DNA from: Rhodoferax lithotrophicus
GTDB taxonomy: Bacteria; Pseudomonadota; Gammaproteobacteria; Burkholderiales; Burkholderiaceae_C
DNA length: 64,000 nucleotides
Direction of reading: 5' to 3'
Assembly: GCF_019973615.1 (NCBI RefSeq)
Contig: NZ_AP024238.1
Span: 1,922,001-1,986,000 of the forward strand
Shown here one piece after another: positions 18,771 to 22,412 of this stretch (position 1 is its first letter; each line of letters starts with the position of its first letter). The position numbers were made by a program, and so were the translations under genes. The notes beneath the pieces were generated by a model. That model made no database searches, had not been told where the DNA came from, and saw only the letters and a list, made by a program, of their open reading frames with translations.

Positions 18771-19424
18771 AACTCGTCAGTCCAGTGAGCGCATCGAGCG
18801 GGCTCTTGGCGCCACCTGCAGCAACTTTCAGTACGTGGTGTGTAGATCTTGGTTGTGCTGTCATCGCCGTGCCCCAAAAGCTCTTGCACAGTCCGAATGT
18901 CAGTGCCTAATTGCAGCATGTGCGTTGCAAACGAATGGGGAGGCGTTTGCGCAGAGACCCGAAGATTCAAACCTTCTGCCAATCGTATGCCTGTGCCATA
19001 AAGCAGACGAGCCAAATTGCCTTCAACGCCTTCCATCAGCCCGAGCACTGACCGCAGCTCTGGCACCGTCAGAACGACAGAAACACATTTTCGCTCTGGG
19101 GGAGGCCAATGGACTGCAGTCATGTCACATCCTGTACGATGACCTGCATGTAGAGAAACAGCATGGCGTTCAGCGCCTGACGTTGGGTGGCAGGAGTGAC
19201 CTGTTTTTCATTGGCCAGCATCGTGAGGAATGATTCACCTCAGGCATGACCATGTCCTTGGGATGGCGCATGGGGCCATTGCGTCCTTGCCAACAGATGA
19301 AAAACCGCGCCCAATAAAGGTAACCCTTTTCGGTTTGAGGGCTATAGTGCTGGTAGCGAATGCGCTCACGGAGCTGGCCAAGCTGCCGAACAGAGCGCAA
19401 AACGGGAGTGGCGACTTTGTCAGT
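18771..19424 (-). pseudogene. intI: Integron integrase (IntI-type tyrosine recombinase), decayed
   Basis: Pieces of an integron integrase occur in order but in different frames. The N-terminus LRSVRQLGQLRERIRYQHYS and TEKGYLYWARFFICWQGR is followed, after a frame change, by MLANEKQVTPATQRQALNAM, an internal stop, then VLTVPELRSVLGLMEGVEGN and LLYGTGIRLAEGLNLRV. The central catalytic part is deleted, jumping to PHSFATHMLQLGTDIRTVQ and LLGHGDDSTTKIYT, then, after another frame change, LKVAAGGAKSPLDALTGL. This cannot give active enzyme. Orientation places its 5' end towards the cassette-like segment at 19527, as expected for an integron. Confidence 0.88.
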
Positions 19425-19440
19425 ATCAATATACCTGTAC

Positions 19441-19456
19441 ATATAAATATTTATAT
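19441..19456. other. 16-bp perfect AT palindrome upstream of the intI remnant
   Basis: ATATAAATATTTATAT is self-complementary. It lies between the integrase remnant and the cassette boundary, where intI and cassette promoters and the attI site would be. No known operator is recognised. Confidence 0.4.
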
Positions 19457-19525
19457 CGCCGTAAATCCATGAGAATAAAAACTTATTTTGTGAAAAATGA
19501 AACACCTTATCTGACTGGCTACCTT

Positions 19526-19532
19526 GTTAGCC
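19526..19532 (+). other. Putative attI/cassette junction
   Basis: GTTAGCC, close to the GTTRRRY integrase cleavage core, placed about 100 bp from the integrase 5' end on the side where cassettes insert. Its complement differs in one base from the GTCTAAC that opens the attC-like site at 22347, as expected if 19527-22406 is a single cassette. Confidence 0.55.
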
Positions 19533-19569
19533 TGAGTATTTGCTGGATACATATAAGGCGCAAGCAACC

Positions 19570-20514
19570 ATGAATGAAGCTGCTCAGCGTTTCTTCGACG
19601 ACAGGTGCATTTCCACTGAAATGGCCTTTAATCCGTACATCTTGAGCGCTGCGGAAATCATTGTGCAAGTAGATGACGAAATTAATAGGTCAGCCGAAGA
19701 ACATATTGAACGACTACAGAATGAGGCAGTCTGGTCTATTCTTCATGATATGTATAAGAAGTGCCATGAATTCGCAGGAGGCACATTAGCTACATTTTTG
19801 ATCGCACATATTGCCTCAGCGGAAGCCCTCTGTAGAACCACTATTGAATCTGCCGTAAATCTTCATTACGCCAGTTGTGGCGATGACATCGGAAACGTCT
19901 TAGCCTACTTTCGCAACTACATCACCACGGAGAGAATTCAGAACAAGGCTTGGCTTAAGAGCGTCGATAATTCCAGTTATCCGTCGGAAGTAAAGGCCCA
20001 TCATCGGGCACTTATAGAGGATAAGGAAAACAGCCTGGATCTCTACGAGGATGCTCTAAGGAAATCTCTTTCCATAATTAATATAGATTACAACAAGCAT
20101 CCAGGTTCATGGCCAAGTACTTTTGATCGTTTTTCCAGAATAGGCAAAGAAGTCGATTACAGAACAATTTATACGGCGCTTTGCTCTCAGGCACACAACG
20201 ACCCCGAAGATATATTGAACAATCTAATGTCACGAATCGTGGAGGTCGACGGTTATGCGGAATCTATTGAGATAGAAAAATACCTGTTCTCTTTGAACAT
20301 GGTACTAACCAGTATCTACTTCTATGTCGAAGCTTCCGCAATGTACTTGGCAAAGTACAACATACCCGTGACAAAGACTCTTGTTCCGCTGCTAAAGAGA
20401 GCAGCCGATTTAGTAGTCGAACTGCAATCCAGCTCCAAGGGACATATTCTGCGTCCTCTCAGAATTGCGTCTACAAGCCTTTTGCAGGGGACCGCAGAAA
20501 GCCACGGTCGCTGA
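19570..20514 (+). CDS. DUF5677-like protein of unknown function
   Basis: 314 residues from the ATG at 19570 (a TTG ten codons earlier is possible). Mostly helical and acidic, with no signal or membrane segment evident. The middle has FAGGTLATFLIAHIASAEAL and RTTIESAVNLHYASCGDD, and further on YRTIYTALCSQAHNDPEDIL; a histidine in a helical ALCSQAHND context is typical of DUF5677 proteins. No enzymatic function is known to me for it. It is 54 bp upstream of the OLD-family gene, same strand, so the two may form one unit, possibly an anti-phage module. That role is an inference. Confidence 0.65.
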   Translation: MNEAAQRFFDDRCISTEMAFNPYILSAAEIIVQVDDEINRSAEEHIERLQNEAVWSILHDMYKKCHEFAGGTLATFLIAHIASAEALCRTTIESAVNLHYASCGDDIGNVLAYFRNYITTERIQNKAWLKSVDNSSYPSEVKAHHRALIEDKENSLDLYEDALRKSLSIINIDYNKHPGSWPSTFDRFSRIGKEVDYRTIYTALCSQAHNDPEDILNNLMSRIVEVDGYAESIEIEKYLFSLNMVLTSIYFYVEASAMYLAKYNIPVTKTLVPLLKRAADLVVELQSSSKGHILRPLRIASTSLLQGTAESHGR

Positions 20515-20568
20515 AAAGTACATTAAACCTCAGAGGCTCAGCAAGGCTCTATAATCGAAAACGAATGT

Positions 20569-22298
20569 ATGCAAATTGAAGTCAGTAAGTTTAAAAAAAT
20601 CGACAAGACGTCGGTCAAGCTTGGTCCATTGAATATATTCATTGGTTCAAACAACACGGGGAAAAGTAGCTTCATTCAGGGCATCCAGTTCGCAATATCA
20701 GCATGCCAGACCTTGGAGCTTGAGCGGTGTAGCTGGAAAAGAGATGGCACCAGAACCCTTTCTTTGGACTCCAATGATTTCTTGTACACCCCAACAAAAA
20801 ATGTAGAGTCACTTTATCACGGAAAAAACTCGCCGGCGCCAAGAAACGTAGCGAACGAAGCGAGATTGAATTTATATTCAAAGAAGGCGTAGATACCTCA
20901 ATCGTCACAATCTCAAAAGGAAAGAATGGTGGCTTCACCACATCGCTTAAAGGTAAAAATATTGGAACCCTTCTTGGTGACATAGCGAATCCATTTTGCG
21001 TCTACGTCCCGGGAATCGCAGGAATACCAACACAAGAAAAATATGAAGTAGCAATTGCGGTCAGAAAGTCAGCCACACGCGGTGATAGTAACAATTATTT
21101 GCGAAACATTCTTTATAGCATAAGCAAACAGGCAGAAAGATGGGGATCCTTCTTGTCTTCTGTCAAAGCTGTTTATGGCACCATAGAAATATTCGTCGAT
21201 TTCGATGAAAATAAATCTGAGTACATCTCAGTTAATGTCAAAACCCAATCAATAGAGGTTCCTTTAGATACCATTGGAACGGGCCTGCTTCAAGTTATTC
21301 AGATATTTGCTTATATCGAGTATTTTTCCCCAAAAATCGTTCTACTTGACGAGCCGGATGCACACATTCACCCAACCAAGCAAAAATACTTGGCTGCAGA
21401 ATTAGCAAAAAAAACTGCCGAAAATCCTGAACTAAAAATCGTTTTCTCTACGCACTCCCGCTACATTCTTGATGCACTTGAAGGTCAGGCGAATGTTGCA
21501 CATTTTCAAGAGGGCAAGGCGTTTAACAATGTCAGGAATAGCAGTATCTTAATTGATATCGGAGCAGCAGACTCTGACTACTTGTTTGGTAAAAAAAATC
21601 TAAGATTCATAATTGCCACAGAAGACAAGGTCGATGACATCAGTGCGAAAAAGGAATTTCTAAAGAAATTCCTCCTTGCAAACGGAGTCCTCGAAGATCA
21701 GTTTGTACTTCACTCATACGAAGGATGCTCTAAAGTCCACTTCGCCAAAATACTAGAAGGGTTTGTATCAAAACACATTCCAGGTGTTCGGGTAATATTG
21801 CACATCGACCGAGACCAAAAGACCGACTCCGACAATGAATTTGTTAAATTGCGAGACGACTGCATTCGTGATGGCATCGCTTTATTTATAACAAAATATC
21901 AAGAAATTGAGTCTTACTTCTGCTTGCCAAAGCATTTAAATATTGCATGCGAGATACCGATTGAAAAGGCGAAAGAGAAATACTCAGAATGGATAGCAGA
22001 ACTCGATGAAAAAACCAGAGATAAATTAACAAACTTTATACTCAGAGATCGCCCAGCACTAGGAAAAAACAAAGACGGGAAAAGCGATATTAAGCAAATT
22101 AATGCTCAAGTTGATGAATGGCTCGTTACAAACAAAGAATTTTTCACCCCTGGGAAAGAGCTTCTTGGGAAAGCCAAGAAATTCCTTCAGGACAACAAGA
22201 AGAATCCGAATGACATTCTTAAAATAAGCGATGGGCTGATCTGCGATGATTTTCAACAGACGTTTCATTCATTGGAAATTAATCAACAAGTCGAATAG
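20569..22298 (+). CDS. OLD-family ATP-dependent endonuclease, interrupted by a -1 frame change
   Basis: The first frame (20569-20892) gives an SMC-like ATPase N-terminus with Walker A FIGSNNTGKSSF. From about 20829 the protein continues in the -1 frame to 22298, with the ABC-ATPase half (IVLLDEPDAHIHPTKQ Walker B, IVFSTHSRYIL H-loop) and a TOPRIM-like nuclease domain (acidic ATEDKVDD; VILHIDRDQKTDSD with DxD). Read through, it would be about 576 residues, normal for OLD nucleases. The switch is at A AAA AAC (20823-20829). It may be a mutation, a sequence error or programmed frameshifting. OLD proteins are known phage-exclusion and defence factors. Confidence 0.72.
20823..20829 (+). other. Candidate -1 ribosomal slippery heptamer
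   Basis: A AAA AAC in the zero frame (codons AAA at 20824-20826, AAC at 20827-20829). Slipping one base back joins the Walker A frame to the frame coding for the rest of the OLD protein. A CTCGC/GCGAG pair downstream could form a weak stem. Confidence 0.45.
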
Positions 22299-22346
22299 CA
22301 TTCTTGGTAAATTTGAGCTTTCTAGGCTTAAGCATCTATTTCACAG

Positions 22347-22412
22347 GTCTAACAGGCGGCTCAACGTGGACAAAATGCTTCGTGTCTTTGCCGGTTAACC
22401 TGGGCGTTGACT
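22347..22412 (+). other. attC-like recombination site
   Basis: Begins with GTCTAAC (RYYYAAC core) followed by a five-base spacer and GCTCAACG, and ends with GGTTAACC, a five-base spacer and GTTGACT. The inner and outer parts are imperfectly self-complementary, the layout of integron attC sites. The length (66 bp) is typical. The final core deviates from GTTRRRY at one base. Confidence 0.55.

Follow-up and report, generated by a model that had tools for sequence, protein, structure and literature searches.

What remains of an integron once its integrase has failed, and do the genes that it captured outlast it? Both questions are raised by a locus in Rhodoferax lithotrophicus, whose genome is one contig of 4.94 Mb; the locus lies within a stretch of 64,000 nucleotides, genome positions 1922001-1986000, which we call the window. 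A preliminary description of this DNA, made from the sequence alone, had proposed a decayed integron, frozen once its integrase was lost, with a single 2.9-kb cassette of two genes closed by an attC site. We find, with a probability of about 0.72, a dead chromosomal integron that holds a DUF5677-family gene and an OLD-like ATPase gene, likely as two one-gene cassettes. Lesions in the integrase gene (intI), homology of the attI region and a match to attC models support the decayed and frozen integron, with cassette DNA closed by attC. The segment (about 19.5-22.4 kb of the window) is AT-rich, as had been described, with a GC content of 0.443 and 0.404 in its two halves versus 0.582 outside. Both genes point away from intI, as confirmed by open reading frames (ORFs) and profiles, and they are the only long genes in the ORF list between intI and the YitT-family gene on the right. 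The features of the integron, in window coordinates, are as follows.

18772..19472, minus strand: intI pseudogene, from tblastn with the IntI frame of relative G722 and pieces matching TIGR02249
19380..19557, plus strand: attI region, homologous to attI at seven sites in six other genomes of the genus
19526..19532, plus strand: GTTAGCC, a motif internal to attI; GTTATCC in five of the seven aligned relatives
19551..19558, plus strand: approximate junction of attI and cassette 1, from the alignment of seven relatives and the upstream translation of P0005
19570..20514, plus strand: DUF5677-family gene of cassette 1, 314 amino acid residues, from the ORF and a Pfam match
20469..20528, plus strand: probable relic of the attC of cassette 1; it overlaps the DUF5677 gene at its 3' end and was placed from the C-termini of P0001-P0003 and from locus L071
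20569..22298, plus strand: OLD-like gene of the AAA ATPase family, cassette 2, with one frameshift, from profiles and homologues
20823..20829, plus strand: place of that frameshift, a run of A ending in C, read in the frame of the gene as the heptamer A AAA AAC
22347..22412, plus strand: worn attC of cassette 2, from models R1 and R2, with R'' (GTCTAAC) intact and L'' and L' recognisable

The fate of the integrase is the clearest part of the answer. Ordered fragments of IntI on the minus strand, noticed earlier from the letters alone, are borne out by pieces whose best family models are TIGR02249 integrase_gron (80.3 bits) and PRK15417, all of them below the full-length cut-off; an integron-class tyrosine recombinase is thus present as a pseudogene only. 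Lesions were mapped by a tblastn search in which the query was the IntI frame of G722 (locus L102), intact with 364 codons. Five pieces (19472-19233, 19236-19099, 19102-18953, 18958-18839 and 18837-18772) keep codons 9-91, 91-136, 136-185, 303-342 and 343-364 of that frame, respectively, and are 66-95% identical, piece by piece, to intact IntI. Three frameshifts lie near 19233, 19100 and 18838, and 117 codons (186-302) have been lost at 18953-18958. Because intI is broken, no excision or insertion of cassettes by the integron's own integrase is expected.

Of intI at the seven related attI sites, only that of G722 is intact; truncation, a frameshift or an internal deletion has affected each of the other six. 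When 299 genomes of the wider family were sampled, 128 gave an IntI match above the family cut-off. Internal deletions of intI recur, with codons 70-322 missing in L109, 124-336 in L039 and 186-302 in the window, and at the junctions of these deletions 6 to 23 bases match both sides. The box CTGT-N8-ACAG, which we take to be of the LexA type, stands before intI in three of the seven relatives; neither the window nor any of the other four showed one. No promoter-like match is listed in 19300-19570.

We searched 89 genomes of the genus, the window's own included, with 19380-19560 as the attI query. Besides the window, matches were obtained at seven sites in six genomes; G300 and G704 gave two more, partial and 31-33 bases long, which the alignment leaves out. 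All seven aligned sites have a GTTRRRY junction 23-25 bases past the motif that had been taken as the core of the cassette junction (GTTAGCC and GTTAGGC in two relatives each, GTTAGAC, GTTAGGT and GTTGGGC in one each). GTTAGCC is indeed present at 19526-19532, but it belongs inside attI, because the junction lies beyond it in every one of these relatives. At the corresponding place in the window (approximately 19551-19558) no recognisable GTTRRRY or GTT core is left. The edge of the cassette is put at the same place by a comparison from the other side: the homologue P0005, when translated 12 codons upstream of its start, resembles the window back to codons K-A-Q-A and then stops doing so. In four of the seven related sites (L081, L110, L113 and L114) attI is followed by an attC. 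An attI adjoining intI is therefore recognised in the window by homology with the seven sites, its own junction core having been lost.

The far end of the cassette DNA was examined with two covariance models. R1 was built from 22 attC sites in other genomes of the family, and R2 from the best 150 of 171 R1 hits, some of which come from elsewhere in this genome; the window site at 22347 was used in neither. R1 matches 22347-22411/22412 with 15.8 bits (E value 0.11 in 64 kb, 0.0063 in 3.5 kb) and R2 matches the same site with 19.0 bits (E value 0.024 in 64 kb, 0.0013 in 19300-22800), while the next best match of either model in the segment 19300-22800 scores at most 8.2 bits. An attC match at this place had been named beforehand as a test of the proposal, and it was obtained, though weakly. 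The site begins 48 bases past the last stop codon and is oriented as the attC of a cassette on its left should be; its R'' is GTCTAAC at 22347-22353, whereas R' lacks one base of the GTTRRRY core. What does not stand is the idea of a strong palindrome. The fold of the bottom strand has a z-score of -0.26, which is not decisive, the arms are equalled or beaten in 5489 of 20,000 dinucleotide shuffles, and an Rfam scan at the gathering threshold returned nothing at the attC sites. We take 22347-22412 to be a real but worn attC. The segment thus has one weak, worn attC found by model and a second one, at 20469-20528, placed by comparison.

The weakness of the last attC (E values of 0.024 to 0.11 in 64 kb) and the unrecognisable core at the attI junction are what could be expected if the two genes were not cassettes at all and had arrived as a small island, with remains of an integron on one side and an inverted repeat of other origin on the other. 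We consider this highly improbable, since the cassette DNA begins within a few bases of the point that corresponds to the junction of all seven aligned relatives, the attC starts 48 bases past the last stop codon and is correctly oriented, and DUF5677-family genes are found in cassettes elsewhere.

The DUF5677 gene itself has an intact, undisrupted reading frame. Its product matches DUF5677 (PF18928) with 46.5 bits against a gathering score of 27.1 (E value 5.5e-12) and is 85% identical to the best of 42 homologues; it is confidently predicted to be all-helical, and no fold relative was recognisable in a fold comparison. Genes of this family recur, uncharacterised, beside attC sites in three other genomes. 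In Pseudomonas toyotomiensis (L071) a DUF5677 gene at 5992-6951 runs into an attC at 6903-6979, which is itself weak (R1, 16.6 bits; R2, 24.6 bits, E value 0.0031). In L120, a locus of G677 within the genus, a more distant member of the DUF5677 family at 553-2007 is followed ten bases on by an attC at 2018-2098 (32.4 bits, E value 4.2e-6). In Methylophaga (L069) a truncated DUF5677 gene that starts at 5980 is preceded, 13 bases away, by an attC at 5907-5966. Three close homologues, P0001, P0002 and P0003 (85, 83 and 80% identical to the window protein), end in LAPNTALQGT, LAPNTVLQGT and LAPNSALRG, respectively; these ends appear to be an attC starting with CCTAAC read as protein.

If the DUF5677 gene came with an attC of its own, a relic of one is to be sought between the two genes of the window. 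A site of 60 bases is found at 20469-20528, the place predicted from these C-termini. Its arms pair with one bulged base, which was reached by 207 of 20,000 dinucleotide shuffles, and the fold of its bottom strand has a z-score of -1.30, again not decisive. The two genes also keep apart elsewhere. An ATPase gene of this family is absent from the DNA examined around all eight named DUF5677 loci, and no DUF5677 gene is seen in the ORF lists of any of the three viral-contig ATPase loci, two of which have little or no upstream DNA. Because some DUF5677-family genes elsewhere have an attC of their own, the close homologues end as they do, a relic site fits the predicted place and the partners occur apart, we think there are probably two successive one-gene cassettes here and not one two-gene cassette.

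The alternative, as first proposed, is one 2.9-kb cassette with a single attC at 22347-22412, in which DUF5677 and ATPase form one defence unit. It agrees with the presence of only one model-supported attC in the segment and with the close spacing of the genes, which are 54 bp apart and run in the same direction. Two-gene cassettes do exist; next to the DUF5677 cassette of L071, a stretch at 7014-8275 carries a DUF5343 and a HEPN_Swt1 gene between two attC sites, one of them at its end. We nevertheless regard a single cassette as unlikely, given that in L071 and L120 the DUF5677-family gene is closed by an attC of its own, as the close homologues also appear to be, that the partners are not adjacent in the eight and three loci examined, and that the relic attC fits the predicted place. 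A joint defence pair is likewise unlikely, because the partners occur apart and the close DUF5677 homologues appear to carry an attC of their own. It had been suggested to look for both genes beside attC in other integrons; DUF5677-family genes are so placed in L071, L120 and L069, and no such case was seen for the ATPase family.

Several results weigh against two cassettes. Both R1 and R2, searched over 19300-22800, fail to detect 20469-20528. Its arms are only moderately unusual by the shuffling test given above, and the loose criteria that reveal it give 203 matches in the window, 15 of them with at least its score, itself included. P0001-P0003 were compared as proteins, so that their presumed attC is read from protein ends and not from DNA. 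No attC was detected in five of the eight named DUF5677 loci (L065, L066, L067, L068 and L070), the attC in L072 is more than 2 kb from its DUF5677 gene, and just one of seven further DUF5677-family loci in the genus has an attC. Finally, no ATPase gene of this family was seen with an attC outside the window, and none was detected in the three viral contigs (L095-L097).

DUF5677-family genes of any kind are present in seven of the 89 genus genomes, that of the window included. A class-wide sample of 321 genomes gave none at an E value of 1e-8 or below, 72,556 plasmid records gave one weak match, and a scan of viral contigs confirmed no relative. A second, distant member of the family lies in the same genome at 4613473-4613895 (L125), with no attC detected. 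We found no paper on DUF5677 with integrons or with defence, in a literature covered poorly for subscription journals.

The second gene had been described as an OLD-family nuclease. An OLD-like ATPase it is, matching AAA_21/AAA_15 and the Old and GajA profiles, while a C-terminal Toprim half is not shown by any profile, and a frameshift had been missed. The frame changes at about codons 85-87, as placed by comparison with homologues; P0044 aligns through residues 1-96 in one frame and through residues 70-574 in another. Past the frameshift, about 490 codons are open and 86-88% identical to a full-length relative, and eight homologues (P0044-P0051, 570-582 residues) are 84-88% identical to the longer piece. 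Heptamers such as A AAA AAC can permit ribosomal slippage. The window gene may accordingly be a young pseudogene, the product of a sequencing error or a gene expressed by slippage.

Residues 2-302 of P0044 match AAA_21/AAA_15, so that the RecF/ABC-type ATPase domain that characterises Class 1 OLD proteins is present. Among profiles of defence ATPases, matches were obtained with NsnB, AriA, GajA, Old and others; AriA covers the ATPase with an E value of 2.7e-17. For AriAB, the PARIS fusion of an AriA-like ATPase to an AriB-type Toprim, the alignment is confined to positions 288-408 of a profile of 694. There is no Toprim profile in P0044, the C-terminal half of the protein has no convincing profile match, and Toprim_3 appears in one of 26 homologues at an E value of 0.24. 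Invariant acidic residues (E352, D353, D356, D414 and D416) resemble what we take to be Toprim motifs. Of the solved structures, the one that matches best by sequence is 6p74 (E values 1.2e-7 and 4e-6), which is listed as a Class 1 OLD in the account of OLD classes in PMC10568477. With Class 1 OLD, as that account presents it, the window gene shares its occurrence as a single gene and its RecF/ABC-type ATPase domain; it differs in that no Toprim profile is detected and the gene is frameshifted.

Of the 89 genus genomes, only the window's own has the ATPase gene. The family recurs at 63% identity in L095, L096 and L097, all from IMG/VR, where the ORF lists place the gene near integrase-like or phage-like genes. 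No helicase or reverse transcriptase partner was seen at the window locus or in these three contigs, which were read by ORF list and not by profiles. Six distant matches were found among plasmid records and none among phage records, both at an E value of 1e-40 or below, and the class-wide sample held one distant ATPase (31% identity, E value of 1e-60 or below). As far as homology can tell, the most likely product of the gene is a phage-defence protein of the OLD type that stands alone; DUF5677 is most likely a helical accessory gene, separate from it, of a family met repeatedly in integron cassettes.

The order of events may be sketched as follows. A working IntI, such as is still intact in G722, would have inserted the ATPase cassette at attI first and the DUF5677 cassette in front of it afterwards. 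The break of intI would have come after both captures, and wear would later have reached the junction at attI, the attC that belongs to cassette 1 and, in the last attC, the R' core. With these sites apparently worn out, both cassettes would now stay put even if IntI were supplied.

Whether the genes were kept for a reason was approached by counting lesions. There are four in 0.70 kb of intI and one in 2.67 kb of the two cassette genes; at the rate of intI, 15.2 would be expected in the latter (conditional binomial p 0.008). Together with the worn att cores, this contrast suggests that the genes were kept by selection for most of the time since intI broke. The test involves five events, with deletions and frameshifts counted alike, and the frameshift in the ATPase gene weakens the claim. 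That frameshift, at about codons 85-87, would also fit a locus that is dying as a whole, first in intI, then in the attC cores and the ATPase gene, with DUF5677 intact by chance and neither selection nor function involved. It is also in keeping with the six of seven related attI sites at which intI is broken or truncated, and with a survey of 2008 (PMC2426708) that has nearly one third of intI genes broken. We hold this a possibility of some weight, less probable than retention, given the open and well conserved codons past the frameshift, the intact DUF5677 gene and a lesion density far under that of intI. At the other extreme, the locus might be a fixed host defence locus, in which the cores have eroded, both genes are under purifying selection, DUF5677 is a new integron-borne defence family and the ATPase is made full-length by slippage at A AAA AAC. 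So complete a picture seems to us improbable.

A dead integron with two captured genes resembles several known systems. Pseudo-integrons, in the terms of the 2008 survey (PMC2426708), likewise have an intI broken by frameshifts and deletion with attI and cassettes still adjacent; unlike them, the locus here has a worn attI junction and worn attC cores as well, and two cassettes only. CALIN elements, which are clusters of attC sites lacking an integrase and are by default reported from two attC sites up (IntegronFinder 2.0, PMC9024848), share the presence of cassettes without a working integrase, whereas here an intI relic remains beside the cassettes and one attC is found by model and one by comparison. 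According to a review (PMC12409362), integrons of Vibrio are stores of anti-phage genes, as shown by expression in 2025; the cassettes of Darracq et al. 2025 and Getz et al. 2025 were, per that review, studied by expression and phage challenge. The window has in common with these libraries integron-borne genes that resemble phage-defence genes, and differs from them in that its integron is dead and function is deduced from sequence.

Neither broken intI genes nor defence genes borne on integrons are new, and the locus is a fossil integron of an ordinary kind. What is new is that the junction has been corrected, that the captured DNA likely divides into two cassettes, that the ATPase gene has a frameshift, and that DUF5677 recurs as a cassette gene. 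The locus is a clear example of cassettes outliving the machine that captured them, with intI, the attI junction and the attC cores worn and the genes nearly whole, and thus a testable case of whether integron-borne defence genes are kept by selection once capture has ended. It also calls for caution, for what looks like a two-gene cassette in an old integron can be a pair of cassettes, the attC between them having decayed too far to pass the thresholds of the models.

To the right of the integron lie two further features.

22413..22725, no strand assigned: stretch from the last attC to the conserved YitT-family gene, with no listed ORF longer than 56 residues inside
22726..23361, minus strand: YitT-family gene forming the right flank, from a Pfam match and comparison with G319

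The relative G319 has the same flanking genes, matching 17000-17883 at 84% and 22726-23956 at 93% identity. Between the shared flanks (L088, 4178-5780) it carries different cassette DNA in the opposite orientation, in which a gene of 208 codons is followed by an attC at L088 5190-5259, and nothing there matches the intI DNA of the window. Since G319 has other cassette DNA between the same flanks, more than one lineage has had cassettes at this site. The same genes at the same place without integron sequences, which would have spoken against an integron origin, were not seen in the 89 genus genomes. A piece of 70 bases occurs on both sides of the insertion, at 18404-18473 and 22874-22943, with the copies 77% alike; the right copy lies within the YitT-family gene and the left one is a stray fragment. 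Two thiamine pyrophosphate (TPP) riboswitches are found elsewhere in the window, at 8260-8356 and 29301-29409 (Rfam, gathering threshold).

Other integron DNA is present in the same genome. At 58866-60943 the window contains a second cassette stretch, without integrase, in which a Gp49/RelE-type gene (60258-60560) and an antidote gene (60564-60851) are followed by an attC at 60874-60943 (R1, 31.0 bits; R2, 38.0 bits); upstream of the Gp49/RelE-type gene is a weak HEPN-like ORF, below the Pfam cut-off. A second intI relic (L039, genome 3474000-3486000, and L062) joins IntI codons 15-123 to 337-362 and lies beside a tyrosine recombinase and what we take to be an IS91-type transposase. The array there has attC sites at L039 9728-9841 and 10168-10269 and at L062 685-742, and it includes a SIR2-domain gene matched over part of its length by a ThsA-like profile (E value 1.2e-18). 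Scattered attC-like sites were also found at genome positions 607314, 1018243, 1569708 and 1571856 (L115, L116 and L117), with 25-43 bits by R1 and 26.9-49.3 bits by R2.

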